From: a virus
Direction: 5' to 3' (one strand)
IMG/VR virus record: IMGVR_UViG_3300028571_000085
Coordinates: 1 to 29,196 of that record
Length of the DNA: 29,196 bases
Positions 12,381 through 29,196 of the stretch are shown here, one piece after another. Under the pieces are notes generated by a model. The model was not told the DNA's origin and did no database searches. It saw only the letters and a list, made by a program, of their open reading frames with translations. A program made the translations under genes and the position numbers. Each line of letters starts with the position of its first letter. Position 1 is the stretch's first letter.

Positions 12381-13343
12381 ATGATTAAATTAACAGATAT
12401 ACTAAATGAATTACTTATTGAAGGCGGAAATGTATTTAACGATACATCTCCAATTAAAAAGGAAAATATAGATCCTACATTAAATGTATTTATAACTGAA
12501 TTATCAAATATATTTCCTAAAAAAGTTGCATCTTTTAGGAAATTTGAAACACTAGGATCAGTAGGTAAAAAGCCAGTATCTGGTGATATTGACCTAGCAT
12601 ATGATATAGAAAATCTTATGCCTAACGGTAAACCAGATCTTGTAGGATGGGGAATCGATCCATATGAATTTAGAATATCTGTAGAAAAAATACAAAAAAG
12701 AGCTAGAACAGCTACATTACAACAATCACAGTTAAAAGCTATGATTGAATTTATCGGTAGTAAAATAAATGAAACTAGTGATAATATTCAAGTAGATTTA
12801 AAGCAGTCTGGATCCGGATCAATGTTTTGTAAAGTAATACAATATGATATTACAGGAGATGAAACTAATAAAACAGTACAGGTAGATGTTAATATAGGTG
12901 ATGCTAAGTGGTTAAGATTTAGCTACTACTCAGCAACATATAAAGGAAACGTAAAAGGGCTTCATAGAACTCAATTACTGGTAGCATTGTTTAATCATAA
13001 AGGTAAAATGTTTAAACACGCACAAGGAGTATTAGATAGAGACACTAGAGAGATAGAGGCTAAAACTCCGGAAGAAACATTACAGTTATTAAATAGATTA
13101 TATAGAATAAATTTAGATCAATCTACATTAGATGATTATTTTAAGCTGATGGAAGTGCTTAGAAAGAATTTAGCTGAAGATGATTTACATAGTATATATG
13201 ATATATACTTAAAAATATTAGACTCTACTAGAGCAGATATACCAGAAGATTTACAACAATACTGGATAGAAAACAAAGAAAGATTAGGACTAAAAGGTAA
13301 CTATTTACCAGAAGATTCAAAATTAATTCAATATAAAAAATAA
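12381..13343 (+). CDS. Pol-beta-type nucleotidyltransferase with head-targeting-like leader
   Basis: 320 residues. The first 14 residues, MIKLTDILNELLIE, are a short amphipathic helix shared with unrelated proteins in this window. LIE is followed by Gly, fitting the (L/I)-x-E/(A,G,S) cleavage rule of T4-like prohead protease. The enzyme follows: GGNVF, then LGSVGKKPVSGDIDLAYD with Gly59-Ser60 and Asp69/Asp71, the hGS...DxD signature of the DNA-polymerase-beta nucleotidyltransferase superfamily. A later VQVDVN strand may supply the third acid. Similar proteins are annotated as nucleotidyltransferases in other phages; the acceptor (tRNA, protein or small molecule) is unknown. The stop directly abuts the next start (TAAATG), and the next product begins with a second nucleotidyltransferase. 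Confidence 0.8.
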   Translation: MIKLTDILNELLIEGGNVFNDTSPIKKENIDPTLNVFITELSNIFPKKVASFRKFETLGSVGKKPVSGDIDLAYDIENLMPNGKPDLVGWGIDPYEFRISVEKIQKRARTATLQQSQLKAMIEFIGSKINETSDNIQVDLKQSGSGSMFCKVIQYDITGDETNKTVQVDVNIGDAKWLRFSYYSATYKGNVKGLHRTQLLVALFNHKGKMFKHAQGVLDRDTREIEAKTPEETLQLLNRLYRINLDQSTLDDYFKLMEVLRKNLAEDDLHSIYDIYLKILDSTRADIPEDLQQYWIENKERLGLKGNYLPEDSKLIQYKK

Positions 13344-15383
13344 ATGTCAGGTTCAGCAGGAGGTAATAGAGTAACAAGAAATGCAGTTCAAAGAACTGTA
13401 GATTCATACATTAAAAATATACTAAGTAAATACCCAGCATATAAAGATGCTAAGATATCTGGGTCATATAACACAGGAGCAAAAGAGGATTTTGGTGATA
13501 TTGACCTAATTGTTACATTACAAGGGGAAGATAAAAAAGCTATTAAACAAGATTTAGCGTCTTTTTTTAGTAAACAACCTGATGATATAATCATACCATT
13601 TAAAAGTGATAAATATAAAGGTAAAAAATCACTATCTACAGGAGAAATAGTAACAATATTATATCCTATAGAAGGATTAGAAGGTGAGTTTGTTCAAATA
13701 GATAATATGATATCTACTTCTGATGAAGAATCTACCTTTAAAAAATCCTTTTTAGATTATCCTGCTGAAATTCAAGGATTATTATTAGGATTAGTTAAAG
13801 TTGTATTAATAGAAGAAGATCCAACAGAAATTTTTAATAGACTATATATAAAGAACATATCTAAATTAGAAGATAATCAAGAATTCGAATTTAATTTATC
13901 AAGTGCAGGTCTAACATTACGTAAAGTAACCTTAACACCAGAATACAAAGAAACAGCAAGAGAAGATATTTGGAAGAGCTCTAACTGGGAAGATGTAAGA
14001 AAACTACTTAAGAACTATAAAATAGATGAAGATTTTGAAACTCTATTAAATAGTTTAACCAATAATTTAAAAAATGAACGTTCTAAAAACAGAATAAAAG
14101 GTATTTTTAAATCAATGATATCTGTAAAATCTGGAGAAGTAGGAACACCAAAAGGAGATAAAAAAACACAATCAATACAAAAAGTTCAAGATTTATTAGA
14201 ATTTATGAACAATATAGGTAAAATTATTGCAGAAGATGTTGTAAATGAACCAGGAATGTGCTTCTATCCAGGAGGATTTAAACCACCTCATAAAGGTCAT
14301 TTCGAAGCAGCTAAAGATTTAGCATCTAGAAACTATATAACCCAGGTAAATGTTATTATAGGTCCTAAAGAAAGAGACGGAATAACTGCAAAGGAAAGTT
14401 TACAAATATGGAAATACTATTTACAAGCAGAACCTAATCCAAAAATTACAGTTAAAATAGCCGATACTGTATCACCCATTAAAGATATATATGATTTTAT
14501 TGCAGTTCATCCTGAATTAAACCCAGTATATGTAGCAGGAGGTAAAGATGAAGTAGATGACTTAGGGTATTTTAAATCATTAACTAAAGCTTTCGGAGAA
14601 AGAGTAATACCAATACCTATTGAAGAGAAATTTGGTAGAATATCTGCATCATATACAAGAAATCAACTAAGGGCAGGTGATATTGAAGCGTTTAAGCAAA
14701 CCCTTCCGGATTCAGTAATACAAAAAGGATATTTTGATGATATATTTAAAATGCTATCGCCGATAATTAAAGAAAACTTTGAGATTAACTTAGCAACTAA
14801 TGAGAATAGTACTATAAAGAAGTACCTAGAAGAGTTTGCTGAATATTGCTATGATGTCCTAGATATTAATAATAGACCGCTAATAAAAGTTATAACAGAT
14901 GATTCATATACTGAACAATATAATAGCTTCGGAGGGTACTCACCATTAGAAAATCAAATATACATTTCAGTAAATAAAAGAAATCTAGCAGATATATTAA
15001 GAAGTTTATGTCATGAAATAGTTCATTCTAAGCAAAATGAAATTAATATATTATCTCAAGAAGATGGTTCAACAGGGTCAGATATAGAAAACCAAGCAAA
15101 CTCTATAGCCGGTATTATTATGAGACATTACGGTCAATTAAAACCAGAAATATTTAAATTAAGTCAGGTTCTAAGTGAAGGAATGACAAAAGTTAAAACA
15201 TTACAAAATATTGTTAAAAAGCACCATATTAAAAATGAAAATTCATTGATGGATGAATTAAAAAAAGGAATAGAAGTAGAAAAGGAACATACAACAAATA
15301 AAAAAGAGGCAGTTAAGATAGCTTTAGATCACCTATATGAAGATCCTAAATACTACACTAAGCTATCATCACTAAATTTATAA
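13344..15383 (+). CDS. Multidomain protein: nucleotidyltransferase, HxGH adenylyltransferase-like, zincin, C-terminal helix
   Basis: 679 residues with four recognisable parts. (1) Residues about 1-130: Pol-beta-type nucleotidyltransferase, with ISGSYNTGAKEDFGDIDLIV (Gly40-Ser41, Asp52/Asp54). (2) About 305-465: HxGH nucleotidyltransferase of the nicotinamide/cytidylyltransferase type, with FYPGGFKPPHKGHF (His316, His319) and ISASYTRNQL as the ISxxxxR-like motif. (3) About 480-600: zincin-like metallopeptidase, with LCHEIVHSK (His557, Glu558, His561) and a possible third ligand Glu582 in IENQAN. (4) About 630-679: ELKKGIEVEKEHT...ALDHLYEDPKYYTKL, a segment I recall from several phage proteins (possibly DUF5661, unverified). 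The stretch GKIIAEDVVNEPGMCF at the start of part 2 looks like a buried gene start, suggesting a fusion of once separate genes. Confidence 0.8.
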   Translation: MSGSAGGNRVTRNAVQRTVDSYIKNILSKYPAYKDAKISGSYNTGAKEDFGDIDLIVTLQGEDKKAIKQDLASFFSKQPDDIIIPFKSDKYKGKKSLSTGEIVTILYPIEGLEGEFVQIDNMISTSDEESTFKKSFLDYPAEIQGLLLGLVKVVLIEEDPTEIFNRLYIKNISKLEDNQEFEFNLSSAGLTLRKVTLTPEYKETAREDIWKSSNWEDVRKLLKNYKIDEDFETLLNSLTNNLKNERSKNRIKGIFKSMISVKSGEVGTPKGDKKTQSIQKVQDLLEFMNNIGKIIAEDVVNEPGMCFYPGGFKPPHKGHFEAAKDLASRNYITQVNVIIGPKERDGITAKESLQIWKYYLQAEPNPKITVKIADTVSPIKDIYDFIAVHPELNPVYVAGGKDEVDDLGYFKSLTKAFGERVIPIPIEEKFGRISASYTRNQLRAGDIEAFKQTLPDSVIQKGYFDDIFKMLSPIIKENFEINLATNENSTIKKYLEEFAEYCYDVLDINNRPLIKVITDDSYTEQYNSFGGYSPLENQIYISVNKRNLADILRSLCHEIVHSKQNEINILSQEDGSTGSDIENQANSIAGIIMRHYGQLKPEIFKLSQVLSEGMTKVKTLQNIVKKHHIKNENSLMDELKKGIEVEKEHTTNKKEAVKIALDHLYEDPKYYTKLSSLNL

Positions 15384-15385
15384 AC

Positions 15386-15961
15386 ATGAGTAATTCAGGT
15401 GAGTTAAAAAAAGAATTTGCACAAAAAGATGTGCAAAGAATGAGAAATATAATAACAGGCAGAACAGGAGAAAGAACATCTGTTCAATCTGGTTATGAAA
15501 AACAAAAGGCATATTATAAAGAAGGAGATATTTGGGAAGAAAATAACAAGCAATGGACTATAAAAGATGGTATCAAGCAGTCTGTTACCAAATTTGATAA
15601 ATTAAAAAAATTAGTTGTATTACCATACTCATGTCCTGAATGTAATAAGCATATGTCTGCAACAGAATTAAACAAAAAAATGTATAGTATACATAATATG
15701 TGCTTTGATTGCGTGATAAACATGGAAACAAAATTAAAAATTGAAGGCAAATATATGGAATATCAAAAATCCTTATTAAATGCTAATAAAAACGATATAT
15801 TAATAGACCTTGAACAAGTATTAGATAACTGGATCAATGAATCAGATTCATTTATATCAGAAGACGGTGTAGTAGAATCATGGTCTAAAGGTAAAGGTAA
15901 TGAAGAATTTTACAGAATTAGTAAGGAAAATATTAAAAAACTAAAAGAGAAAGAAATATAG
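15386..15961 (+). CDS. Zinc-finger phage protein, unknown function
   Basis: 191 residues, starting two bases after the previous stop. About residues 30-65 contain a GDIWEENNKQWTIKDGIKQ block. Next come CPEC (about residue 84) and CFDC (about residue 110), a pair of C-x2-C knuckles separated by about 22 residues that should bind one zinc ion. The C-terminal half is helical and charged. I recall similar uncharacterised phage proteins but no established function. It has no shared leader, unlike several neighbours. The next gene follows after 28 bases containing a TATTTATTAATAAA motif. Confidence 0.7.
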   Translation: MSNSGELKKEFAQKDVQRMRNIITGRTGERTSVQSGYEKQKAYYKEGDIWEENNKQWTIKDGIKQSVTKFDKLKKLVVLPYSCPECNKHMSATELNKKMYSIHNMCFDCVINMETKLKIEGKYMEYQKSLLNANKNDILIDLEQVLDNWINESDSFISEDGVVESWSKGKGNEEFYRISKENIKKLKEKEI

Positions 15962-15989
15962 ATATTTATTAATAAAAAATACTTTTATT

Positions 15990-16637
15990 ATGCCTGCAAA
16001 AAGTAAAGCACAACAAAAATTCATGGGTATGGTTCATGCATCACAAAAAGGTGAAATGAAACCTAAAGGTGCAGTATCAAAAGCTGCTAAATCTATGACT
16101 AAAAAATCAGCAACTGATTTTGCCTCAACTAAACATAAAGGACTACCTGAAAAATTAAAAGAAGGTGTAGGAAAAGGAGAACCAATTTTTTTTCATTATG
16201 TTTTAGAACCAGAAGATCACACATCTAAAATATCAGACCTAGTACATGGAGTTCATGTTGTTAAATTCGGAAAAGAAATGGGTGAAGGTAAATTTGAAAA
16301 CGATAAAGGTATTGTTGGTAAAATTTATGGATATTACATGGATGAAGAAGAAGCAAGTGATACAGCTAAAGAATTAGTTAAAGGACTTCATGAAACAGCA
16401 TCAATGCTAGAAGCTAAAAAAGCTACAGTTACTGATGCTTTACAGAAAAAAATTGACGAATTGCAGAAAAATGCAGAAGAACATTTAAAATTAGCTAAAA
16501 AAGAACCGGAAAATGGTGAGAAACATCACGATAAAGCTCAAGCAATATTAGCTAGAATAAAAGTATTAAGAAAAAAGCATAAAATGGTAGAAGGATCTAA
16601 AAGAGAAATTATATCATTAGAAGAAACTGAAAAATAA
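15990..16637 (+). CDS. MPAKSKAQQKFMGM-type protein (DUF3008-like N-terminus)
   Basis: 215 residues. The start MPAKSKAQQKFMGMVHASQK and the following Lys/Ala-rich stretch to about residue 55 match the small family I recall as DUF3008, of unknown function and found in bacteria and phages. Middle residues about 60-130 form an acidic alpha/beta region (HVVKFGKEMGEGKFENDKGI). The last 80 residues are a long charged helix or coiled coil rich in Lys and Glu. This gene joins the family domain to extra C-terminal sequence. The stop and next start overlap (TAATG). Confidence 0.72.
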   Translation: MPAKSKAQQKFMGMVHASQKGEMKPKGAVSKAAKSMTKKSATDFASTKHKGLPEKLKEGVGKGEPIFFHYVLEPEDHTSKISDLVHGVHVVKFGKEMGEGKFENDKGIVGKIYGYYMDEEEASDTAKELVKGLHETASMLEAKKATVTDALQKKIDELQKNAEEHLKLAKKEPENGEKHHDKAQAILARIKVLRKKHKMVEGSKREIISLEETEK

Positions 16638-16999
16638 TGGAGTCAATTAATCAATTAATCTCAACTATATTCGCTTCTAGAACACAAGCACATATATTTC
16701 ACCTACAAACCAGATCATTCGCCCAGCATCAAGCACTAGGAGCGTACTATGACAGTATAATTGATTTAGTAGATAGATTTATAGAATCATATCAAGGTAA
16801 ATACGGTATAATTAGAGGGTATTCATCACCTGCAATATTCAGAGAAGATGATGATACAGTAAAATACTTTGAAGGATTAGTTAAATTTGTAGAATTAAAT
16901 AGAGAAAGAATACCTCAAGATAGTTATTTACAAAATCAAGTAGATGAAATAGTATCATTAATAGAATCTACATTATATAAGTTAAAAAGTTTAGCATAA
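16637..16999 (+). CDS. Small helical protein (DUF5856-like)
   Basis: 120 residues, predicted almost wholly helical. ASRTQAHIFHLQTRSFAQHQ followed by ALGAYYDSIIDLVDRFIESYQG recalls a phage family I remember as DUF5856, with a ferritin- or Dps-like look (His and Asp/Glu spaced along helices: H19, H22, H31, D39, D43). Metal binding or four-helix packing is plausible but unproven. Translation is probably coupled to the upstream gene by the one-base overlap. Confidence 0.7.
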   Translation: MESINQLISTIFASRTQAHIFHLQTRSFAQHQALGAYYDSIIDLVDRFIESYQGKYGIIRGYSSPAIFREDDDTVKYFEGLVKFVELNRERIPQDSYLQNQVDEIVSLIESTLYKLKSLA

Positions 17000-17002
17000 T
17001 AC

Positions 17003-17761
17003 ATGGAAAAGGTTAATGAAGCAAAAAGTACTTGCTGCGGTAAATGCGGGCACATGCATGTTAAAGGTACTTCATGCCCTAAACCCTTCCTAACTGGTAA
17101 ACGTCACTGCAGAAATCGTAAAAACGAAAGTATAATTAAAGGTTCATTAAGTGAATTACTAGAAGATGATTGCTGTTCAAGAAATATTATTAATGAAGGT
17201 CCTCAATTAATAAAAGAATCATTACTTTCAGAAGGATTACAGTATCATATCGATAATAATCTGCCTTTAAGAGAAAATACTTACCGTCCTTTATCTGATA
17301 ATTACTTTGAATTATTCAGAGAAGCAAGAAAATTATATACCGAAGGTTTACTAAAAGTAAGCGAAGAAGATGCCGAGCTATTAGAATCTAATATCGGTGA
17401 ATTTGGAGTTTATAACGGAGTAACAGTACCGTTAGATTATGTTTTTGATATAGATGAACTAATCAATGAGATAAAACATAGAGGTAAAGAGGTAAAATTA
17501 AATAAACCTAAAAGAGGAGGATCTAAAAAGTTTTATGTTTACGTAAAAGATCCTAAATCTAAAAATATTAAGAAAGTATCCTTCGGAGGTACTACAGGAT
17601 TGAATGCAAAAATAAATAATCCTGAAGCAAGACGAGCTTTTGCTGCCAGACATAAATGTGCTCAAAAGAAAGATAAAACTAAACCAGGATACTGGGCATG
17701 TAGATTACCTCGTTACGCAAAACTATTAGGAATGAATACAACTTTTGGAGGATTCTGGTAA
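17003..17761 (+). CDS. Composite Cys-rich protein with several prohead-protease-like sites
   Basis: 252 residues. The N-terminus has a Cys/His cluster (CCGKCGHMHVKGTSC, then HC at about residue 36) likely to bind zinc. About 45-85 comes a segment carrying INE-G, IKE-S and LSE-G, all fitting the (L/I)-x-E/(A,G,S) rule of T4-like prohead protease. About 95-150 is an acidic domain (FREARKLYTEGLL, then LLESNIGEFGVYNG). The C-terminal 85 residues form a basic domain (KKFYVYVKDPKSKNIKKVSF, then ARHKCAQKKDKTKPGYWACR) that I recall as recurrent in phage proteins of unknown function. The build suggests a head protein processed during maturation (inference). The next gene begins one base after this stop. 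Confidence 0.72.
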   Translation: MEKVNEAKSTCCGKCGHMHVKGTSCPKPFLTGKRHCRNRKNESIIKGSLSELLEDDCCSRNIINEGPQLIKESLLSEGLQYHIDNNLPLRENTYRPLSDNYFELFREARKLYTEGLLKVSEEDAELLESNIGEFGVYNGVTVPLDYVFDIDELINEIKHRGKEVKLNKPKRGGSKKFYVYVKDPKSKNIKKVSFGGTTGLNAKINNPEARRAFAARHKCAQKKDKTKPGYWACRLPRYAKLLGMNTTFGGFW

Positions 17762-17762
17762 C

Positions 17763-18269
17763 ATGATTAAATTAGGCGATATATTAAACGAGCTTCTTTG
17801 TGAAAAAGAAGATAGATGTAAACGTATCGCCGATAAAAGATATGATAAACCATCAGCTTATAAATCCGGCGCAATAGTAAGATGCCGTCAAGGTAAGATC
17901 TGGAAAGATTTAAAAGAAGAAATAGAAGATCCAACTATTGAATGTGAAAACTGTAATCATAGTTGGAAAGTAAGTCAATCAGATCCATCCGATTTATATA
18001 TTTGTCATACATGCGGATTTGATAATAGTAATGATTTAAAAGAAGAAGAATCATTACATAAATGGTTTTCTAGACAAGGCGGAGAAGGTAAATCTAGAGG
18101 ATGGGTTGATTGCAATACATGTAAGAAAGATCCTAAAACCGGTAGAAAAAAATGCAAGCCTTGCGGTAGACAAAAAGGTGAAGATCGTGCAAAGTATCCT
18201 TCTTGCCGACCAACACCATCACAATGTACAAGGGAAGGAAAGTGTACAACTTGGGGTAAAACAAAATGA
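17763..18269 (+). CDS. Leader-bearing Cys-rich zinc-ribbon protein
   Basis: I choose the ATG at 17763 (168 residues) over the one at 17745, because it lies just after the upstream stop and gives the leader MIKLGDILNELLCE, nearly identical to that of the nucleotidyltransferase at 12381. After the leader come RIADKRYDKPSAYKSGAIVR (a motif I recall from other phage proteins), a zinc ribbon CENC...CHTCG (about 58-84), then a Cys-rich basic tail: GWVDCNTCKKDPKTGRKKCK with further Cys. About 12 Cys in all suggest two or more metal sites. Nucleic-acid binding is plausible from the basic charge. Its last four bases (ATGA) overlap the next start. Confidence 0.75.
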   Translation: MIKLGDILNELLCEKEDRCKRIADKRYDKPSAYKSGAIVRCRQGKIWKDLKEEIEDPTIECENCNHSWKVSQSDPSDLYICHTCGFDNSNDLKEEESLHKWFSRQGGEGKSRGWVDCNTCKKDPKTGRKKCKPCGRQKGEDRAKYPSCRPTPSQCTREGKCTTWGKTK

Positions 18270-18595
18270 TAAAATTAGTAGACTTAATTAAAGAAGAAAA
18301 AATTACCGACGAAAAATTCGAAGAATTTGCTGTTACTAGAGGTAAAGGTGCTGCTAAAATAGCATCAACTGCTCAAGAAAAAGGCGGATTATCATTACTA
18401 ACTTGGCATCATTTTAAAGTAAAAGCCCCGTACTATAAAAAAGCTGAAGAGGGTAAATTTGATAAAGAATCAGGTATAAAAGAGTTTGAAAAAACCTTAA
18501 AAAGTATATCCTTGAATATGACTCAAATAGAATTCCAAAGAGAAGTAGGAAGATTAGAAGTTCTAGGTGAGCTTATCATTAAATCTAAAAAATAA
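18266..18595 (+). CDS. Leader-bearing small protein, unknown function
   Basis: 109 residues, beginning MIKLVDLIKEEKITDE, a variant of the shared leader that lacks a good protease site after Glu. The body (GAAKIASTAQEKGGLSLLTW, then FKVKAPYYKKAEEGKFD, and a Leu-rich C-terminal helix EVGRLEVLGELIIKS) recalls a common uncharacterised phage protein. No catalytic motif is visible. Translation is coupled to the upstream gene by an ATGA overlap. Confidence 0.72.
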   Translation: MIKLVDLIKEEKITDEKFEEFAVTRGKGAAKIASTAQEKGGLSLLTWHHFKVKAPYYKKAEEGKFDKESGIKEFEKTLKSISLNMTQIEFQREVGRLEVLGELIIKSKK

Positions 18596-18600
18596 AGATA

Positions 18601-19224
18601 ATGCTAAATGAGAACATTCCATTTTTTAAATGTCTCGTAAAAGAATCTTACTTCACAAAAAATCCAAAAGATTCTAATAAGTATCATAATGCTTACGCTT
18701 TCGGAATACAATCAATAACAGGTAAAATTCTCACCTTCCATATCATGACTGATTACGGAATGTTAAGATCCAGAGTACCTCTATCAGAAATCTATTTAAA
18801 AGAACCTAAAAAAGATATACCATATTATTATAAGCAATTATGGGATTGTTTTGATAACGATGTATCTATTACAACTTATAGCTTTTTAAAAGAAAATAAA
18901 TGTAAAGTTATATTAAGAGATAAGACTTATGTCTGGGCGACATATTTATTTACAGTAGATTGGCAAAACAATCCATATTCAGACGAACCTACTGATTATA
19001 AATGCGGACATGTATTAGTATCTGATGATGGATACTTATTATGTATGCCTAATAATAGGATATTCTGGAAAGATTCTAACTGGATTACTAAAGATTTTCC
19101 AATAGAACCAAAAAGTATTAAGGTAGATACAGAGCTATTATCTGTAGAATCAGTATCAGATAGATGGGTAACTGAAGATACAGATTCCTTTTATTATGAC
19201 ATAAAAGAAATAAATAATGATTAA
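18601..19224 (+). CDS. Conserved-looking phage protein, unknown function
   Basis: 207 residues, mostly beta-like, with many Trp, Tyr and Cys. Notable segments are FHIMTDYGMLRSRVPLSEIY, LFTVDWQNNPYSDEPTDYKC and PNNRIFWKDSNWITKDF. I recall similar segments in other phages without a known role. No leader is present. It overlaps the following leader-bearing gene by 8 bases, so the two are probably translated together. Confidence 0.7.
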   Translation: MLNENIPFFKCLVKESYFTKNPKDSNKYHNAYAFGIQSITGKILTFHIMTDYGMLRSRVPLSEIYLKEPKKDIPYYYKQLWDCFDNDVSITTYSFLKENKCKVILRDKTYVWATYLFTVDWQNNPYSDEPTDYKCGHVLVSDDGYLLCMPNNRIFWKDSNWITKDFPIEPKSIKVDTELLSVESVSDRWVTEDTDSFYYDIKEINND

Positions 19225-19531
19225 AATAATTGATATATTAAAAGAAGCACTTTCGGAAAAAAAACGAAAAGGATTATGGTATTATATTAATCGTAAAAAG
19301 AAATTAGGAATAAAATCATCACCTAAAAACTCTAAAAAATATAAAGCAGCAGTAAAAGCAGGTAAAGAATTATCTAATGAAGGAATTGATGATCCTGTAG
19401 AACCAGGCATTCTTAAAAAAAGATTAGGTAAGTTATCTTGTACTAGAGTTAAGGCTGAAAAGGCAAAATTAAAAGATAAAGGTACTCACTACGCAAAAGC
19501 ACTACAAAGATATATAAACTATCACTGTTAA
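19217..19531 (+). CDS. Leader-bearing basic protein
   Basis: 104 residues. It begins MIKIIDILKEALSE, the shared leader, followed by a strongly basic body: KKRKGLWYYINRKKKLGIKS, then KKYKAAVKAGKEL. The C-terminus KKRLGKLSCTRVKAEKAKLK followed by GTHYAKALQRYINYHC is a small helical domain that I recall at the ends of several phage proteins. The charge would suit DNA contact inside the head if the leader targets it there; both points are inference. Confidence 0.74.
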   Translation: MIKIIDILKEALSEKKRKGLWYYINRKKKLGIKSSPKNSKKYKAAVKAGKELSNEGIDDPVEPGILKKRLGKLSCTRVKAEKAKLKDKGTHYAKALQRYINYHC

Positions 19532-19536
19532 TAATA

Positions 19537-19797
19537 ATGAATCCATATAAAGATTTAGAAGTTACAGATTTTTACATTATAAGAGAATTCTATCAAGATA
19601 TAAATCCAATAGAACTAAAATGGCACAGGGATAATGAAAATAGAATTATAGAAATTCAAGGTAATACTGATTGGAAAATACAACTAGAAAACAATTTACC
19701 AGTATCTATAAATGATCCGATATTTATACCTAGAGGATCATACCATAGAGTTATAAAGGGTACTAATAATTTAAAATTAAAGATATATAAAAAGTGA
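19537..19797 (+). CDS. Small cupin-like protein
   Basis: 86 residues. WHRDNENRIIEI, then NDPIFIPRGSYHRVIKGTNN, give the pattern of a single small cupin barrel, with possible metal ligands His and Glu in the first motif (H-x-D-x-E) and His in the second. Compact phage proteins of this look are usually unannotated; the substrate is unknown. Its TGA stop overlaps the GTG start of the next gene (GTGA), the only GTG start I accept in the window. Confidence 0.65.
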   Translation: MNPYKDLEVTDFYIIREFYQDINPIELKWHRDNENRIIEIQGNTDWKIQLENNLPVSINDPIFIPRGSYHRVIKGTNNLKLKIYKK

Positions 19798-20204
19798 AAA
19801 AACAATTAATTAACGAAGCATTCAGATTGCAGCAGCTAGCTGGTATTCAGCCTATTAATTCTTTAAATGAAAAATTAGATGATGTTGGACGTGAAGATTC
19901 TGATGTCGATAATGATGGAGATGAAGATGAAAGTGATGAATTTATACTTAAACGCCGTGAACTTATTAGTAAAAATATGAGTGAAGGTGAAGATCACGAA
20001 GTAGCAATGGCTCAATCAAGTCTAAAAGCTATTATTAGCTCAGCTTCTCAATTAATGAATAAAATAGGTCAGGAAGAAATTAATATACCTGCCTGGATTC
20101 AGGATCACATTACCAATTCAGAAAACTATATCGAACAAGCTAATCAAGGATATCATCAATTATGTGATAAAGGAGAAGAAGATGTTGAAGTATCTATAAT
20201 GTAA
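19794..20204 (+). CDS. Acidic helical protein, GTG start, possible head-processing site
   Basis: 136 residues from GTG at 19794, overlapping the previous stop. The N-terminus (M)KKQLINEAFRLQQLAGI has INE followed by Ala, a good match to the T4 prohead-protease rule. After about residue 22 comes an Asp/Glu-rich patch (EDSDVDNDGDEDESDEF), then a helical region about 65-136. The patch DVDNDGDEDE resembles a dockerin/EF-hand style calcium loop (D-x-D-x-D-G-D), so calcium binding is possible. Small acidic helical phage head proteins often serve as scaffold or core; that role is inference. Confidence 0.66.
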   Translation: MKKQLINEAFRLQQLAGIQPINSLNEKLDDVGREDSDVDNDGDEDESDEFILKRRELISKNMSEGEDHEVAMAQSSLKAIISSASQLMNKIGQEEINIPAWIQDHITNSENYIEQANQGYHQLCDKGEEDVEVSIM

Positions 20205-20207
20205 AGA

Positions 20208-20693
20208 ATGAAGAAGAAAGAAATATTAAGGTATATTATTAAAGAAGAAGTAACTAGATTCTTAAAAGAACAAGAAGAATCTGTACAGATTACTTTTGAA
20301 ACTAATCCGTTAGAATATATTTTAATAAAATATCCTTCACTACAAAAGACATTAATTAATCTAATGTCGGATGCATTTAAAGACTATCTGACAGGAGTAT
20401 ATATAATGGCTCCTAAGCCGACTACATTTAAAATACTACTACATAACGGTCAATATTTTTACCTAACATATTTAGGTAAAGCATATGAATGTGAAGTATC
20501 CGGTAGAAAGTATTATTTAATGGGTATTGGAGAAAAACAACGAGCAATATTAGCTATAGCTAATTTATTAAAATTAGGAAGGCCATCCTCAAGTGAAGGG
20601 CCTTCAAGTGAAATATCGGCTGGAGAAGAAGCTACATCTCCTGCAGCAGAGACTCCACCTTCTCAAGCTGAAGAAGAGAAAACTGAATCATAA
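20208..20693 (+). CDS. Phage protein with low-complexity acidic tail
   Basis: 161 residues. MKKKEILRYIIKEEVTRFLK is a helical, loosely leader-like N-terminus. The core (about 30-125: YPSLQKTLINLMSDAF, TGVYIMAPKPTTFKILLHNG, then YYLMGIGEKQRAILAI) is an alpha/beta domain I recall from other large phages without a function. The last 35 residues are Ser/Glu/Pro/Ala-rich and probably disordered. It starts three bases after the preceding stop. Confidence 0.7.
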   Translation: MKKKEILRYIIKEEVTRFLKEQEESVQITFETNPLEYILIKYPSLQKTLINLMSDAFKDYLTGVYIMAPKPTTFKILLHNGQYFYLTYLGKAYECEVSGRKYYLMGIGEKQRAILAIANLLKLGRPSSSEGPSSEISAGEEATSPAAETPPSQAEEEKTES

Positions 20694-20734
20694 GTTGATT
20701 AATTGAGATATTATAGTTATTATTAGCTACTGAA

Positions 20735-21676
20735 ATGATAAAACTGAGCAATATATTAAAAGAGGTTATGAAAGAAGATGATAAAGAAGTATTATCCGGT
20801 AGCACTATCTACGATGATGTAATTAAAAAAGAATTAAAAGTAGAAGAGATACCAAGTGTTAAAGGTAAATATAAATTAGGAGTTTCTGGAAAGATAAATC
20901 CAGCTGATTTACAAATATTTAAACAACTATATAAAGTATCACCGCCTAGAAAAAACAAAGAAATAGGATCTGCAGGATCTCAAGGATCTGGAAACGGAGA
21001 AATAGCATTATATTGGTTATTAAAAGGTAGTGGGTATAATGATATTATAGATTCTAGAGAAAATAATCAACCGGATTTAAAAATAGGAAATGTAGGCATT
21101 GAGGTTAAATCTGTAGATACAAAAACATTCCAGCTAGGTAGATTTGCCTCTGTACAGCCTATTAAAGGATTATTAAACAGTCTATTTAGCATATCAGAAT
21201 TATTACAGGATGTAGAACATTCAGAAAAAGAAAATGTAGTAGCTGAAATTAAATCTAAAACAGTAGATTCTAGTAATTTTAGTATTGAAGATATTAAAAA
21301 TGCATGTAAATTATGTATAGATTTTTTTAATCAAATTAAAAAACATAAAGATTTAACTGTTTTTCCTATAGTTAAAAACGCATATAATAAAATTAGAATA
21401 TTATTTGATCAGATACCTAAAGATATAGATAAACACACTCCAGAAACCCTAGCAGCCGGATTACTTAAATTATTATTAATAGGATTACTAAACAATAAAC
21501 CAGGAATCGGAGGGTATTTTATTAATATAAAAGAAGATGGTGAACTAGAATGGTACAAAGTTACAGAAGAAAATATTAGTAAAATATCTAACGAAAAAAT
21601 ATTAACTAAAGCAGCTATCAACATTAAACAATCATCTGTATCTATCAAACCAGAATTATTTTTCGGTAAAAGTTGA
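20735..21676 (+). CDS. Leader-bearing PD-(D/E)XK nuclease-like protein
   Basis: 313 residues. It begins MIKLSNILKEVMKED, the shared leader. The catalytic core is visible at about 85-130: Glu89 in GNGEIALYWLL, Asp114 in NQPDLKIG, and Glu123-x-Lys125 in GIEVKSVD. This is the E...PD...ExK arrangement of restriction-endonuclease-like nucleases. The rest is helical with no DNA-binding motif I can name. If the leader sends the protein into the head, a nuclease delivered with phage DNA could attack host DNA or counter defence early in infection, but this is inference. It is preceded by a 41-base A/T-rich gap and followed by a gap with two TATAAATA matches. Confidence 0.76.
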   Translation: MIKLSNILKEVMKEDDKEVLSGSTIYDDVIKKELKVEEIPSVKGKYKLGVSGKINPADLQIFKQLYKVSPPRKNKEIGSAGSQGSGNGEIALYWLLKGSGYNDIIDSRENNQPDLKIGNVGIEVKSVDTKTFQLGRFASVQPIKGLLNSLFSISELLQDVEHSEKENVVAEIKSKTVDSSNFSIEDIKNACKLCIDFFNQIKKHKDLTVFPIVKNAYNKIRILFDQIPKDIDKHTPETLAAGLLKLLLIGLLNNKPGIGGYFINIKEDGELEWYKVTEENISKISNEKILTKAAINIKQSSVSIKPELFFGKS

Positions 21677-21984: not shown

Positions 21985-22008
21985 TATTTATTATAAAATA
22001 TTTATTAT
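21985..22008 (+). promoter_or_regulatory. Double TATTTATTAT motif before gene at 22007
   Basis: TATTTATTATAAA at 21985-21997 is followed at once by TATTTATTAT at 21999-22008, the second running into the start codon. This is the densest instance of the recurrent intergenic motif. Its role, promoter or leader element, is unknown. Confidence 0.3.
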
Positions 22009-22561
22009 GGAATTTAACTACAAGCAATTCTTAACCGAAAACAAATTAACTAACCAGTCTAAAGTTAAATCATTATTTGAAAATAAAATAAATGAAGAAG
22101 AAGATAATGATGAATTTCAAGATGAGCCTAATTCAAAAGACATTAAACCCAGTAAAAGCACCGATAATTTAGCTGAAAAATTATATCAATTAGCTTCATT
22201 ATTAAAGCGTAAAGATGAATTAGTGTCTAAATTTAAATCTAATGAAATTAATTTCGATCAATATAAGCAAATGATCGGCAATATTCCACAGAAGATTAAA
22301 ACTTTAAGAGCAGATATTGAAACATTAGAATCGCAAGCAGCAGGGAATATGGATGAATCTAAAGATAAAAAACATATGCAAGAAGTATCTTATGAAACTT
22401 TAGAAAGAATGGAAGGGTTAATAAATAGAAGAGATCTAGAACTATTTAAAAATTCTTTAGAAAATATTACGAATGAATTGGAACAAGAAGGTTTTGAACT
22501 TTCTGATATTAAAGCATATATACAAAGAGAGCTTGATGAAATATTAGGAATATATAAATAA
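22007..22561 (+). CDS. Coiled-coil protein with T4 internal-protein-like N-terminus
   Basis: 184 residues. The start MEFNYKQFLTE has the same spacing of Tyr, Phe, hydrophobic and Glu as the capsid-targeting sequence I recall for T4 internal proteins (MKTYQEFIAE). The residue after Glu is Asn, though, so cleavage there is doubtful. The rest is charged and helical, with a coiled coil about 60-110 (LYQLASLLKRKDELVSKFKS) and another at the C-terminus. It is a plausible head core or internal protein lying directly upstream of the terminase gene. Confidence 0.72.
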   Translation: MEFNYKQFLTENKLTNQSKVKSLFENKINEEEDNDEFQDEPNSKDIKPSKSTDNLAEKLYQLASLLKRKDELVSKFKSNEINFDQYKQMIGNIPQKIKTLRADIETLESQAAGNMDESKDKKHMQEVSYETLERMEGLINRRDLELFKNSLENITNELEQEGFELSDIKAYIQRELDEILGIYK

Positions 22562-22565
22562 AATA

Positions 22566-22629
22566 ATAACATTAGTTATAGGTTACTATAATATTTATAT
22601 ATATAATAATTTATATAACCTAATGTTAT
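22566..22629. repeat. Inverted repeat spanning the terminase leader
   Basis: ATAACATTAG at 22566-22575 is the exact reverse complement of CTAATGTTAT at 22620-22629, which overlaps the terminase start codon at 22628. The 44 bases between are almost pure A/T. In RNA the arms could pair and hide the start, or in DNA they could bind a dimeric regulator. No U-run follows, so a terminator is unlikely. Confidence 0.5.
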
Positions 22630-24235
22630 GTCTCAAGATAATACGCCTAATCAACTATCAATAAAAGAAGCAATTAAGCAGGAATTTGTTAAATGTGCAA
22701 CAGATCCTGCTTATTTTATGCGCAAATATTATATGATCCAGCACCCCAAAAGGGGTCGAATACAGTTTGCATTATATCCATTTCAGGAAAAAGTACTAAA
22801 ATTATTACAAAACAATGAATATACAATAACTAACAAATCAAGACAGTTAGGTATATCAACGTTAGTATCTGCATATTCTCTATGGTTAATGTTATTCCAT
22901 AGAGATAAAAACGTATTAGCTATTGCAACCAAACAGGAGACAGCTAAAAATATTGTAACTAAAATTAGGTTTGCATATCAATCTTTACCAAACTGGTTAA
23001 AAATAAAAACAGTTGAAGATAACAGGTTAAGTCTAAGATTAGCGAACGGTTCACAAGTAAAAGCTGTTGCAGCATCACCGGATGCAGGCCGCTCTGAAGC
23101 TGTATCATTACTTATATTAGATGAAGCAGCCTTTATTGAAAACATTGATATAATATTTACAGCCGCTCAGCAAACATTAGCAACTGGAGGGCAATGTATT
23201 GCTGTTTCTACACCGAATGGTACTGGTAACTGGTTCCATAAAACATTCTCAGCATCTCAATTAAGTGAAAATAAATTCATACCCATATCATTACCTTGGA
23301 CAGTTCACCCGGAAAGAAATCAAACATGGAGAGATGAACAAGATAAAATCCTAGGTATAAGAGCAGCAGCTCAAGAGTGTGACTGTTCATTCACCACATC
23401 GGGTGAAACAGTAATTGAACCTACAATATTAAACTGGATAGAATCTAACACAATAGAAGAGCCTATCGAGAAAAGAGGAATGGATGGTAATCTATGGATA
23501 TGGGAACCAGTTGATTATAATAAAAATTATGCAGTAATAGCTGACGTTGCAAGAGGAGATGGAAAAGATTACTCTGCATTTCATATTGTTGATATCGAAT
23601 CAAACACCCAAGTAGGAGAGTATAAAGGTCAAATAGGAACTAGAGAATATGGTAATTTATTAGTAGGTATTGCAACAGAATATAATGATGCATTACTAGT
23701 AATAGAGAATAATAATATAGGATGGGACGTTGTTCAAACAGCAATTGAAAGAGGGTATAGAAACCTATATTACTCACCATCATCTGATCTAGCACTAACA
23801 AATGTAGAGATGTATCTTAATAAATTTAACTCCGGAAACGGAATGGTACCTGGTTTTTGTACGAATTTAAAAACAAGACCTCTTGTTATTTCGAAATTAA
23901 TCTCTTATCTTAATGAAAGGTCTTTAACAATAAAGTCTAAAAGAACACTATCAGAACTAAGAACCTTTATTTGGAAAAACGGCAGAGCACAGGCTATGGA
24001 TTCATATAACGATGATCTAGTCATACCGCTATCTATAGGAATGTTCTTAAGAGATACGGCTTTAAAATTTATGCAGACAGGCGAAGACTTAGCACGAGCT
24101 TCACTAAATGGAATGGGTAAAACAGGTAATAATGGCGGGTTTCAAATTTATAGTCCTAGTGATTATGGAGGTCAGAATCCATGGAATCAAACTAATATTT
24201 ACGGCCAACAAGAAGATCTTAGTTGGTTAATATAA
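22628..24235 (+). CDS. Terminase large subunit, T4 gp17-like
   Basis: 535 residues. This is the packaging motor ATPase and headful nuclease that docks on the portal and drives DNA into the prohead. The ATPase has Walker A KSRQLGIST (residues 70-78) and Walker B LLILDE (161-166) with catalytic Glu166, then STPNGTGNWF as the coupling motif. The RNase H-like nuclease has ADVARGDGKDYSAFHIVD (Asp306), VIENNNIGW (Glu360) and a later YNDDLVIPLSIG acidic site. It is somewhat shorter than T4 gp17 (about 610 residues) but has both domains. It lies 20 bases before the portal gene, an order common in T4-like phages once gp18 and gp19 are moved elsewhere. No small terminase is recognised in the window. 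Confidence 0.95.
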   Translation: MSQDNTPNQLSIKEAIKQEFVKCATDPAYFMRKYYMIQHPKRGRIQFALYPFQEKVLKLLQNNEYTITNKSRQLGISTLVSAYSLWLMLFHRDKNVLAIATKQETAKNIVTKIRFAYQSLPNWLKIKTVEDNRLSLRLANGSQVKAVAASPDAGRSEAVSLLILDEAAFIENIDIIFTAAQQTLATGGQCIAVSTPNGTGNWFHKTFSASQLSENKFIPISLPWTVHPERNQTWRDEQDKILGIRAAAQECDCSFTTSGETVIEPTILNWIESNTIEEPIEKRGMDGNLWIWEPVDYNKNYAVIADVARGDGKDYSAFHIVDIESNTQVGEYKGQIGTREYGNLLVGIATEYNDALLVIENNNIGWDVVQTAIERGYRNLYYSPSSDLALTNVEMYLNKFNSGNGMVPGFCTNLKTRPLVISKLISYLNERSLTIKSKRTLSELRTFIWKNGRAQAMDSYNDDLVIPLSIGMFLRDTALKFMQTGEDLARASLNGMGKTGNNGGFQIYSPSDYGGQNPWNQTNIYGQQEDLSWLI

Positions 24236-24255
24236 TATATTTATATTTATAACAA

Positions 24256-26190
24256 ATGGCAGAATCAAACGTATTTAGTAGATTAAAAAGATTATTCTCT
24301 ACAGATGTAGTAATAAGAAATATTGGTGGGAACCAACTTAAAGTAATAGATACCGATCGAATTCAAACAAACGGCGTATTACAAACCAATGCCCTGGTCG
24401 ACAGGTTCAATAGAGTATATACTACATCAAACTCATACGCATACAACCTTAACACTAGTCAGAACTATCAGACTATGCGCGTCCAGCTCTACTCTGACTA
24501 CGAAGCTATGGATACAGACGCTATTATTGCATCAGCATTAGATATTGTATCTGACGAATGTACACTAAAAAATGAACAAGGAGATGTGCTTCAGATTAGG
24601 TCATCTGATGAAAACATTCAAAAAATACTATATAATTTATTTTATGATGTATTAAATATAGAATTTAATTTGTGGTCATGGATTAGAAATATGACCAAAT
24701 ATGGAGATTTTTATCTTAAATTAGAAATTGCAGAAAAAATAGGAGTATATAATGTAATTCCATTCTCAGCGTATACAATCGTAAGATTAGAAGGTATCGA
24801 TATTAGTAATCCTTCTTATGTACAATTTAAATTTGATCCGACTGCAGTATCAGGAGGCACTTCTGGATATATGGCAACATATTCTGGAATGATAGAAGGT
24901 AAAGATGGAATAACATTTGAAAATTATGAAATGGCACATTTCCGCTTATTAGGAGATGTAAATTATTTACCATACGGAAGGTCCTATTTAGAGCCTGGAA
25001 GAAAAATATTTAAACAAATGGTGTTAATGGAAGATGCGATGTTAATTCACCGTATAGTAAGAGCACCAGATAAAAGAGCATATTATGTTAATGTTGGAGC
25101 TATTCCTCCTAATGAAGTAGAGACGTATATGCAAAGAATGATCTCTAAAATGAAGAAAATTCCTTTTGTAGATCCAAATACAGGTCAATATAATCTTAAG
25201 TATAATATGCAAAATTTACTTGAAGATTATTTTATACCAGTTAGAGGTAACGATACATCTACTAGAATAGAAACTGTACCCGGATTACAGTATAACGGAA
25301 TAGAGGATGTTGCATATCTAAGAGATAAATTATTTGCCGCATTAAAGATCCCTAAAGCGTTTATGGGATATGAAAAAGATCTAACAGGTAAAGCAACCTT
25401 AGCTGCAGAAGATATAAGATTTGCAAGAACAATTGAAAGAATTCAAAGAATCGTACTATCGGAGCTAACCAAAATTGCACTAATACATTTATATACTCAA
25501 GGATATACAGCAGAATCACTAACAAATTTCGAACTATCCCTTACTACTCCATCTATAATATACGATCAAGAAAGAGTAGCGTTAATGAAAGAAAAAGTAG
25601 ATTTAGCAGCTCAAATGACTGAAAACAATCTATTTCCTAGTGACTGGATATACGATAATTTATTCCACTTAAGTGAAAATGAATATGACGAAATTAGAGA
25701 TTTAATATTAGAAGACAAAAAGAGACAATTTAGGTATACTCAAATTGAAACCGAAGGAAACGATCCTTCAGAGTCAAATCAAGCATATGGCACCCCACAT
25801 CAAATCGCAAGTCTATACGGAGGAAACTCAGTAAGAACTGCCGCATCAAAAGTACCTTTAGGATATAACGAAAAAGACCCGAGTGAGCCTATTAAGGTAC
25901 CAGGAAGGCCTCAATCTAGGGCTTCATTTATAAACACTGCAGATGATCCACTAGGTAGAGATAGAATGGGCTCATACGATATGAAGGCAAAACCATCATC
26001 AGGAGAGGATGCTACAGGTAAAACAAAATATATTGGAGGCTCACCTTTATCGTTAGAAAGTAAACAAGCGCAAATAGTTTATTATACTAATAAATCAATG
26101 TTTGATAAAATTAATGTAAATCACAAAGTTAATTTATTTGAACAAAGTGATTTACTAGACGAAGATAATATTATTAGTGATATTCAATAA
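24256..26190 (+). CDS. Portal vertex protein, T4 gp20-like
   Basis: 644 residues. It forms the ring at the head vertex through which DNA enters and leaves and on which terminase docks. The order of features fits gp20: an N-terminal YSDYEAMDTDAIIASALDI block, then WSWIRNMTKYGDFYLKLEI, then DAMLIHRIVRAPDKRAYYVN and GQYNLKYNMQNLLEDYFIPV, and LTGKATLAAEDIRFARTIER followed by IQRIVLSELTKIALIHLY. The last 130 residues or so extend past the usual core and are charged and Gly/Ser-rich. The TATTTATA-like sequence at 24238-24251 precedes the start. It is longer than T4 gp20 (about 524 residues). Confidence 0.93.
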   Translation: MAESNVFSRLKRLFSTDVVIRNIGGNQLKVIDTDRIQTNGVLQTNALVDRFNRVYTTSNSYAYNLNTSQNYQTMRVQLYSDYEAMDTDAIIASALDIVSDECTLKNEQGDVLQIRSSDENIQKILYNLFYDVLNIEFNLWSWIRNMTKYGDFYLKLEIAEKIGVYNVIPFSAYTIVRLEGIDISNPSYVQFKFDPTAVSGGTSGYMATYSGMIEGKDGITFENYEMAHFRLLGDVNYLPYGRSYLEPGRKIFKQMVLMEDAMLIHRIVRAPDKRAYYVNVGAIPPNEVETYMQRMISKMKKIPFVDPNTGQYNLKYNMQNLLEDYFIPVRGNDTSTRIETVPGLQYNGIEDVAYLRDKLFAALKIPKAFMGYEKDLTGKATLAAEDIRFARTIERIQRIVLSELTKIALIHLYTQGYTAESLTNFELSLTTPSIIYDQERVALMKEKVDLAAQMTENNLFPSDWIYDNLFHLSENEYDEIRDLILEDKKRQFRYTQIETEGNDPSESNQAYGTPHQIASLYGGNSVRTAASKVPLGYNEKDPSEPIKVPGRPQSRASFINTADDPLGRDRMGSYDMKAKPSSGEDATGKTKYIGGSPLSLESKQAQIVYYTNKSMFDKINVNHKVNLFEQSDLLDEDNIISDIQ

Positions 26191-27617: not shown

Positions 27618-27755
27618 ATCGCAAAGGTTAAAGGAGGAAGAGCAGCTAATACAGGAACTAAAGTAACATTTGGTAAGAGAAGAATAGGTAAATTTAAAAA
27701 AAGACAAAACAAACACAGCAGTGTAGGTAAAAAATATAGAGGACAAAGTATATAA
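27618..27755 (+). CDS. Putative 45-aa basic protein with ATC start, or read-through extension
   Basis: Directly after the TAA at 27615-27617, in the same frame, 45 codons read (I)AKVKGGRAANTGTKVTFG, then KRRIGKFKKRQNKHSSVGKK and YRGQSI before TAA. Fifteen of 45 residues are Lys or Arg and none is acidic, a composition unlikely for random A/T-rich sequence. No ATG, GTG or TTG starts it. The codon after the stop is ATC followed by GCA AAG, just where M-A-K would be expected, and abutting stop-start pairs occur elsewhere (13341-13346). Options are an ATC start, UAA read-through joining it to the upstream coiled-coil protein, or an ATG changed to ATC by mutation or sequencing error. DNA or scaffold binding is inferred from charge. 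Confidence 0.6.
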   Translation: MAKVKGGRAANTGTKVTFGKRRIGKFKKRQNKHSSVGKKYRGQSI

Positions 27756-27762
27756 TTAAAAT

Positions 27763-29196
27763 ATGAAACCAATACAAAATCAATATCAGGACCTTTTAGA
27801 AGGTAAAATGTCTAAACATAACTTTTTAAATAATATTAAAAGTACATTATCACAATATGTTTCTAAAGGAAATTCCTACGAAGACGCTATTAGCATATTA
27901 AAGAGTAAAAGAATATTGTCTGAAGTTAAACCTAATGAAATAGATACAGTACAAGACAAAAAAGGAAACTTTACTAAACGAATCAAATTATCTGATAAAG
28001 ATAAAAAAACTGTTGGAAAAGTTCAAGCGTTAATGGCTAAAGAAAAACCATTAAAAGAAATGTTCTCATCATCTCTAAAGCCAAATAGTAGTTATGAATA
28101 TAGCGGAGGTGCAGAAACAGAAATATTAAAATATGTTGGTAAAAGACAAGATAATCCTGATATCAAAGTAGGATCTAGTATGGGTAAAGGACATATCTTT
28201 CAATGGCCTGATGGTAAGTATTTTGAATTAGGTCCAATATCTGTTATGAAATATATTAACAAGATAGATAATGAAGAGGATGAAGAGATAATTAATAGAT
28301 ATGACCGTGAACAAGAAAAACATGCATTACCTGGTGGAAATATATACGAAAGTGTTGAAATGCCTGCAAATCTAATAGCAGACATTGATAAAGTAAATCC
28401 ACTTGAATATAATACAGGATTAGATTATGAATTAGATTTATCAGGAGACTTTTCAGCAGAGAGCTTAGTTAAATGCGCTAAAAAAGTTGTTAAGAATTTA
28501 AAGAAAAATCCTATATATTATACTAATTTAAAAGCTGAATTAACTCAGAAAATTAACAATAAAAAAGTAATATCTTCTGAGTATACTGAATTAAAAAAAG
28601 ATAATCAAGTAGATAAATTAAATCAATTAAAATCTATAGTTAAGAAAGAAATTGCTAACACTAAGACATCTTTAAGTAAGCAAGAAAAAGCATCTAAAGC
28701 AATGCCAAAAGGTGTTAAGTTAATGAAAGAAGAAAAAGAACAAAAACCAAAACTATCTGCAAAACTGATACAAGGTATAATTCAAAAAAGCGGAGGTCCT
28801 CGTAAAGATTTATATTATACAGAAGATTTAAAAGATGGGAATGTATATGTTATAAGTAAAAATCAAGGAATGTATGATTTAGTAGGAAATGCTAGAAAAA
28901 ATATAGAAAAATACTTTGATATACAAGAAGAGTCTGAAAATTTAGAAGATAGATATTGGTACGAATATATTATTAAACCTAATCCTGATAAACCATATCC
29001 AACACAGCCTAAAGCTGATATCGATTTAAATATAGATGATATTTTTGAAAATAACGAAAAAGAAAGAGCACCAAAACTATCTGCAAAACTGATACAAGGT
29101 ATAATTCAAAAAAGCGGAGGTCCTCGTAAAGATTTATATTATACAGAAGATTTAAAAGATGGGAATGTATATGTTATAAGTAAAAATCAAGGAATG
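27763..29196 (+). CDS. Large repeat-containing head-region protein, 3'-truncated by window edge
   Basis: Starts at ATG 27763 after an A/T-rich leader and stays open to the last base (478 codons, no stop). The N-terminus MKPIQNQYQDLLEGKMS has LLE followed by Gly, fitting the T4 prohead-protease rule. Middle parts include KGHIFQWPDGKYFELGPISV (about 147-166), GDFSAESLVKCAKKVVKNLK followed by KNPIYYTNLKAEL, and long charged helices. From residue 329 a 108-residue unit begins PKLSAKLIQGIIQKSGGPRK and contains YVISKNQGMYDL; it restarts at residue 437 and is cut by the window end. The function is unknown; position after the portal suggests a prohead or head-internal role. Confidence 0.78.
   Translation, partial: MKPIQNQYQDLLEGKMSKHNFLNNIKSTLSQYVSKGNSYEDAISILKSKRILSEVKPNEIDTVQDKKGNFTKRIKLSDKDKKTVGKVQALMAKEKPLKEMFSSSLKPNSSYEYSGGAETEILKYVGKRQDNPDIKVGSSMGKGHIFQWPDGKYFELGPISVMKYINKIDNEEDEEIINRYDREQEKHALPGGNIYESVEMPANLIADIDKVNPLEYNTGLDYELDLSGDFSAESLVKCAKKVVKNLKKNPIYYTNLKAELTQKINNKKVISSEYTELKKDNQVDKLNQLKSIVKKEIANTKTSLSKQEKASKAMPKGVKLMKEEKEQKPKLSAKLIQGIIQKSGGPRKDLYYTEDLKDGNVYVISKNQGMYDLVGNARKNIEKYFDIQEESENLEDRYWYEYIIKPNPDKPYPTQPKADIDLNIDDIFENNEKERAPKLSAKLIQGIIQKSGGPRKDLYYTEDLKDGNVYVISKNQGM
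28746..28872 (+). repeat. 127-base exact direct repeat, copy 1
   Basis: Identical base for base to 29070-29196, 324 bases (108 codons) downstream and in the same frame. The bases before the two copies differ (A at 28745, C at 29069), so the left border is real. The right border cannot be seen because copy 2 ends with the window. Confidence 0.95.
29070..29196 (+). repeat. 127-base exact direct repeat, copy 2 (at window end)
   Basis: Identical to 28746-28872, including all third codon positions, and reaches the final base. A contig that ends exactly on a repeat of internal sequence is what a de Bruijn-graph assembler produces at an unresolved tandem repeat, so the true copy number and sequence beyond this point are uncertain. 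Confidence 0.93.

Follow-up and report, generated by a model that had tools for sequence, protein, structure and literature searches.

Why should five proteins encoded by one phage begin with nearly the same ten residues and then diverge into unrelated bodies? This question is posed by IMG/VR record IMGVR_UViG_3300028571_000085, a 29,196-base fragment of a phage of the T4 superfamily (the window, by which we mean this whole stretch), in which a preliminary description reported shared N-termini on the proteins starting at 12381, 17763, 18266, 19217 and 20735. In T4, few head-carried injected proteins are known, and elsewhere virion proteomics has been needed to find them; a recognizable ten-residue leader would make such proteins findable by sequence in uncultured phages and may offer a simple route to the proteins that uncultured T4 relatives carry into bacteria. 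Here we argue that the leader, consensus MIKLxDILxE, is most probably a propeptide for capsid targeting, the counterpart of the one on the T4 internal head proteins. The type of tag is already known from T4; what is new is the consensus, together with a much longer list of putative cargo.

All five leaders occur where they were reported and, like every window feature given below, lie on the plus strand. MIKLTDILNELLIE, which begins MIKLTDILNE (12381..12422), has a predicted cut at LIE↓GG (arrows mark junctions) and precedes a body (12423..13343), delimited by junction comparison, whose earlier assignment as a nucleotidyltransferase is borne out by a match to the DNA-polymerase-beta-type fold (Foldseek prob 1.00, E 4e-5). 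MIKLGDILNE (17763..17792) opens a zinc-ribbon or PSAYKSGA-type protein with a CxxC...CxxC pattern (17763-18269), MIKLVDLIKE (18266..18295) a 109-residue protein of unknown function (18266-18595) with 29 related sequences, itself counted, in the fetched loci, MIKIIDILKE (19217..19246) a 104-residue basic protein (19217-19531) and MIKLSNILKE (20735..20764) a putative PD-(D/E)XK protein (20735-21676). The description of the last as a nuclease stands in part: its P-D...E-x-K residues are invariant but a fold search of the body returned no structural match, and the label is therefore at motif level only. Comparison of positions 2-10 across 31 window genes gave 10 N-terminal pairs identical at five or more of the nine positions (within-protein shuffles, mean 0.16, maximum 2) and 6 pairs identical at six or more (shuffle mean 0.004). 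Chance sharing of the five leaders is excluded.

The same leader is found on many other bodies in related phages, in which the preliminary description had proposed searching for it. Among named phages the window is best matched by Flavobacterium phage immuto, with 57% identity in the terminase, and by Microcystis phage Mel-JY01, with 51%. A profile of the five leaders, run on 1,088 proteins from portal-selected loci (chosen without regard to the leader) and from stretches of these two phages, gave 44 hits in at least 16 body clusters, with 0.22 expected. A scan of IMG/VR with the exact back-translated codon pattern for M-I-K-L-x-D-I-L-x-E found at least 120 stretches, against 6 for a scrambled control pattern, and at least 141 distinct proteins in at least 63 body families unrelated by BLAST, a count that exaggerates independence where remote homology escapes detection. 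Essentially all of these proteins, among the matches listed, carry the pattern at the gene start, and none has it within a frame that stays open far upstream. When looser leaders were included, the matches listed comprised 231-234 proteins, which fall into 84-85 families; 20 of these families have at least two members. Pfam separates the tagged bodies into RimK ATP-grasp, ART-PolyVal (firm for L151 only), NUDIX, RNase_T, zeta-toxin-like kinase, phosphoribosyltransferase, M23/lysozyme and other domains, and an alignment of 86 representatives has the consensus MIKLxDILxE with nothing conserved beyond it. The leader strings were looked for in the available literature and turned up nowhere. In one contig (L191, 3733-7909), five successive genes carry the leader before their sequences part; in four of these it continues into an extension, MIKLxDILxEYKxNxPxKY.

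A capsid-targeting sequence of this kind is reportedly present in T4 on IPI, IPII and IPIII and in the propeptides of Alt and gp24, as described by Mullaney and Black. Like the leader, it is N-terminal, about ten residues long, hydrophobic at positions 4, 7 and 8, and ends in Glu10 within an (L/I)xE motif. It too is carried by mutually unrelated bodies, and the phages concerned encode a gp21-type protease along with a portal, a terminase and a capsid protein of T4 type. For the T4 sequence of IPIII, ten residues suffice for targeting, and mutational work assigned positions 4 and 7 to targeting and 8 and 10 to processing (PMC9026906). We compared these positions with 46 N-termini of relatives, picked by M[IVLM][KRSNT][LIFM] at positions 1-4 only: residue 7 was hydrophobic in 96% and residue 8 in 98%, Glu10 was present in 89%, and positions 5 and 9 were variable; position 4 is hydrophobic by selection in this set and is also conserved among the 44 profile hits. 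The conserved positions 4, 7, 8 and 10 of the leader, as read from these alignments, are thus those assigned to targeting and processing in IPIII. Residue by residue, the nearest T4 match is the gp24 propeptide, MAKINELLRE↓S, a known gp21 substrate (K3, I/L4, D/E6, I/L7, L8, E10), although gp24 is a vertex protein and not cargo. IPII and IPIII themselves begin MKTYQEFIAE, in line with the N-terminus given in the preliminary description; cleavage by gp21 after (L/I)-x-E likewise agrees with the literature (PMC9026906). The leader departs from the T4 sequence in its consensus, MIKLxDILxE, in its putative cargo families, which number dozens, in having several parallel classes within one genome and, in the window, in cargo that is mostly clustered upstream of the terminase gene; it is known here from sequence. 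A parallel to the predicted cleavage is seen in phiKZ and SPN3US, where head and ejection proteins undergo Glu-specific processing by an S80 protease and the diverged paralogues gp53 and gp54 have identical N-termini (PMC5694885), but these propeptides are often longer than 100 residues, carry another motif (SxE or AxE) and belong to another phage group. AlphaFold models of two proteins both place residues 1-21 in a low-confidence short helix and linker, separate from the folded body. A loose hxxhhxE regular expression over whole genomes was enriched (immuto, 18 against 5.7 shuffled) yet too permissive for naming cargo gene by gene. T4 gp2, the DNA end protector (L087, 16062-16886), which starts MAIFQIINES, also matches this core.

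Comparison of homologous bodies locates the junction. Members of the 12381 family share a constant body that starts GGN(V/L)F and is preceded by MIKLTDILNELLIE, MIKLISIVKQILME↓GGNVF, MISLVGILKDIISE↓GGNVF or MIKLKDILLE↓GGNLF, while the immuto homologue is leaderless (M↓GGNVF), with the start Met alone and stops upstream. The leader has been lost or changed in length exactly at (L/I)xE↓GG. Among the 14-residue forms Glu10 is variable and the GG-adjacent Glu is invariant in all leader-bearing members, which indicates that the conserved element is the (L/I)xE at the junction; the boundary of the 12381 protein thus falls at Glu14 (LIE↓GG) rather than at Glu10-Gly, as first read. Bodies also exchange leaders: GKQVGTLYHFT is joined to MIKLLDILKEITE or MKKSQLKQLIKEEILKALNE, PTQ(N/D)xELN to a class C leader or MDNFDLRKYLAE, the same body may carry a class C or a class B/A leader, and several phosphatase homologues begin without one. 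Concern had been raised that the residue after Glu in the 17763, 19217 and 20735 proteins does not suit a gp21-type protease. This is mostly unfounded, since the gp21 motif is L/I-x-E and needs no more (PMC9026906). The 65-residue propeptide of gp23 ends at its cleavage residue, Glu65 (PMC9026906), which is invariant in capsid proteins of this clade, with Q, S, A or T in the next position; the residue after Glu is thus not limited to Gly.

A search for a gp21-like protease downstream of 29196 had been proposed, and one is encoded there in a sister contig, L002, whose portal is 99% identical to that of the window and which runs beyond the window end. The gene (phrog_207, E 7.6e-48) lies downstream of the portal, just past the point at which the window stops. 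Its His, Ser and Asp residues are conserved in the relatives' proteases, and immuto and Mel-JY01 also encode gp21-type enzymes. Phrog_207 was found in all six leader-bearing contigs of at least 135 kb and in 3 of 9 shorter ones.

Evidence from virions comes from published cyanophage proteomes. For S-CREM2, 52 virion proteins are tabulated (PMC10665884). We searched the 16 residues at each N-terminus for a T4-type core, [FYL]xxF[LIFM]xE; the five genes with it encode a SAM hydrolase (MKDFDSFLEE), gp13 (MKDLHSFLTE), an APH kinase (MKRFDAFLTE), gp136 (MQTFSMFFSE) and a cytidylyltransferase (MKNFSSFLTE), and all five were detected in the virion by mass spectrometry (0.44 expected from the motif rate; hypergeometric 7e-4). 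A Cas9-like virion protein of the same phage has the core near residues 18-25. In S-SCSM1, used as a later test of the expression, the virion NMNAT starts MKSFLQFLKEA and the second leader gene is missing from the list of detected proteins (1/2). Combined, 6 of 7 genes with T4-type leaders are in the virion (p ~6e-4, somewhat optimistic because the form of the expression was chosen after the T4 and S-CREM2 N-termini were known). These virions carry unrelated enzymes with an MK-x-F-x-x-FL-x-E leader resembling that at 22007 in the window; unlike MIKLxDILxE, which is a parallel type, this leader is of the class A/T4 type. The S-CREM2 authors proposed encapsidation and, in the available text, named no signal (PMC10665884). 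The leader would offer a mechanistic account of the enzymes that have been repeatedly, and puzzlingly, met in cyanophage virions.

Taken as a capsid-targeting propeptide, the leader would be a short helix on a flexible linker, joined to an otherwise independent protein. The helix would dock on the scaffold core during prohead assembly, so that unrelated proteins are packed together in the head; a gp21-type protease would then cut after (L/I)-x-E, usually at Glu10 and in the 12381 family at Glu14, freeing the body in the mature head, and the cargo may be ejected along with the DNA and be active early in infection. For MIKLxDILxE proteins in this phage, packaging, cleavage, docking and ejection are inferred by analogy with T4. 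The ART-PolyVal, NUDIX, RNase_T, zeta-toxin-like kinase and RimK domains resemble head-delivered effectors, and the at least 63 body families flagged by the leader, mostly without a known domain, offer candidates for anti-defence functions or for takeover of the host early in infection. PADLOC gave mostly weak hits, which were set aside as functional evidence.

The idea of a head-cargo tag, put forward in the preliminary description, passed every test run (modularity, T4 positions, protease in relatives), but several observations weigh against it. The virion data come solely from cyanophage leaders of the FxxFLxE type found at 22007, the literature consulted yielded no virion proteome for any phage with MIKLxDILxE, and in the part available the S-CREM2 authors leave co-purification possible (PMC10665884). 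Six of the shorter leader-bearing contigs (63-102 kb) gave no protease match; searches of these six for terminase and Gp23-type capsid protein were likewise without a match, and they therefore look like fragments, although this is unproven. At least two bodies with a MIKLKDIL leader are peptidoglycan hydrolases (L162, 1725-2969; L103, 7278-8033; M23 with tail lysozyme, and Hydrolase_2), which are not necessarily head cargo and which simple cytoplasmic delivery leaves unexplained. Such cell-wall hydrolases, and the short amphipathic helix with hydrophobic residues at 4, 7 and 8, would suit an uncut helix that sends proteins elsewhere than the head interior, for example into the membrane, to a replication compartment or to the baseplate. 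We consider this unlikely, as it explains neither the near-invariant Glu10 with conservation ending right after it, nor the exact (L/I)xE↓GG junctions, nor the proteins with sister leaders in the available virion data. It is quite unlikely, too, that the leader sends assembly factors or scaffolding helpers to the prohead core, to be destroyed or expelled later, with no ejected effectors. In T4, gp22 and gp67 of the core do undergo processing, and the resulting fragments for the most part exit the head (PMC9026906); the putative core gene at 27763 starts similarly. But many of the tagged bodies are the kinds of enzyme usually seen in host takeover, and enzymes with sister leaders remain in mature virions in the cyanophage data available.

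The two other explanations dispense with a protein signal or with independent bodies. The shared start could instead act at the nucleotide level as an expression element, for example a cassette for translation initiation or 5' regulation. Its codon bias would accord with this (Asp is GAC in 58% of leader codons against 18% in bodies, and the third base of codon 7 is identical in 92%), but the 231 leaders comprise 216 distinct 30-nucleotide sequences with synonymous variation free at most codons. This variation disfavours an expression element, which we regard as very improbable, and the bias fits a leader that spreads as a DNA cassette. Descent of the tagged proteins from one duplicated gene, with the leader as part of a homologous domain, is scarcely credible: one large single-linkage cluster does hold 59-61 tagged proteins, yet the 84-85 families have distinct Pfam folds and leaders are exchanged on constant bodies. 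The preliminary description had named confinement to one such domain as grounds for abandoning the tag, and we reject it because the body families are unrelated by BLAST and nothing is conserved past the leader, with at least 63 families in the leader scan and at least 16 clusters in the leader-blind loci.

The capsid-targeting propeptide may be one of several parallel labels. Of the looser leaders suggested earlier, those at 22007 and 20208 are further classes found on other bodies in relatives. The class A leader MEFNYKQFLTE (22007..22039) is the nearest to the IPIII sequence (YKQFLTE / YQEFIAE), and the class B leader MKKKEILRYIIKE (20208..20246) compares with MKKSELVKLIKEE and MKKSQLRQIIKEA of immuto. 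The start MKPIQNQYQDLLE↓G (27763..27801), on a putative prohead-core gene that lies directly upstream of the protease gene in relatives, is kept as approximately MxxIQxQYxxLxE↓G in the same syntenic gene there; 27084 is weak as a leader carrier and is not relied on. A fourth class, at 19794 (MKKQLINEAFRLQQLAGI...), had been overlooked: the class D leader MKKQLINEAFRLQQLAGIQPINSLNE (19794..19871), with a GTG start, belongs to a type that L002 and immuto carry on different bodies. L002 itself encodes five MI(K/R)L leaders (1762, MIRLGDILNE; 2925; 3242; 4005; 6291), on bodies that overlap the window set only partly, and additionally bears class A, B and D leaders. Its 4005 protein was suspected to be an Alt-like ADP-ribosyltransferase from HETS...GI..NGL, without Pfam or PHROG support. 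In immuto, candidate leaders open the genes at 24569 (MIKLIDLLTE↓S), 103366 (MISIYNILKE↓V) and 112261 (MRLLELLRE↓A), and those at 103806, 117631 and 118632 have leaders of FLVEN/FLTEN type. We tentatively suggest, as a possibility short of probable, that T4-like phages of aquatic bacteria use parallel address labels (MIKLxDILxE, FDLKKFLVEN-type, MKKSQLRQIIKEE-type and LAGIIxE-type), possibly docking on different core partners, and so load an extensive and rapidly exchanging set of injected effectors, which by present counts would comprise well over 100 families. If the leader moves between genes as a small DNA cassette, any new gene that acquired it could become head cargo.

Homologues of the 20735 body at L146 107, L106 1089 and L154 1606 have N-termini other than the leader, and in L082 16532, L146, L106, L154 and one immuto gene a KGYPDxNNPxDxxLL start replaces it, perhaps as another N-terminal signal. 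A module of about 50 residues (DPVEPGILKKRLGKLSC...AKALQRYINYHC) recurs at the C-termini of otherwise differing proteins, several of them leader-bearing (window 19217-19531, L002 4005-5087, L134, L051, L095 and immuto 113188), and is possibly a second shared signal or a DNA-binding tail.

By homology, the window encodes a large terminase of T4 gp17 type (22628..24235) and a portal of T4 gp20 type (24256..26190), whose syntenic immuto homologue is annotated gp20. A search of window DNA from 12 to 22.5 kb against named phages gave no match, and tblastn with three leader body families matched immuto alone among them. The last 127 bases of the window (29070-29196) exactly repeat 28746-28872, both within one open frame. 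A length of 127 is a frequently used assembly k-mer; the repeat was probably produced by the assembler at the contig end, and the end of the 27763 frame is thus untrustworthy. A 45-residue basic core-type gene (MAKVKGGRAASS...) at 13445-13582 of L002 has a window counterpart (27618-27755) that reads ATC for ATG and was therefore overlooked by gene finders. Finally, the putative tail-region protein at 8536-9735 contains a long PTPTPTAT repeat that creates spurious open reading frames in other frames.

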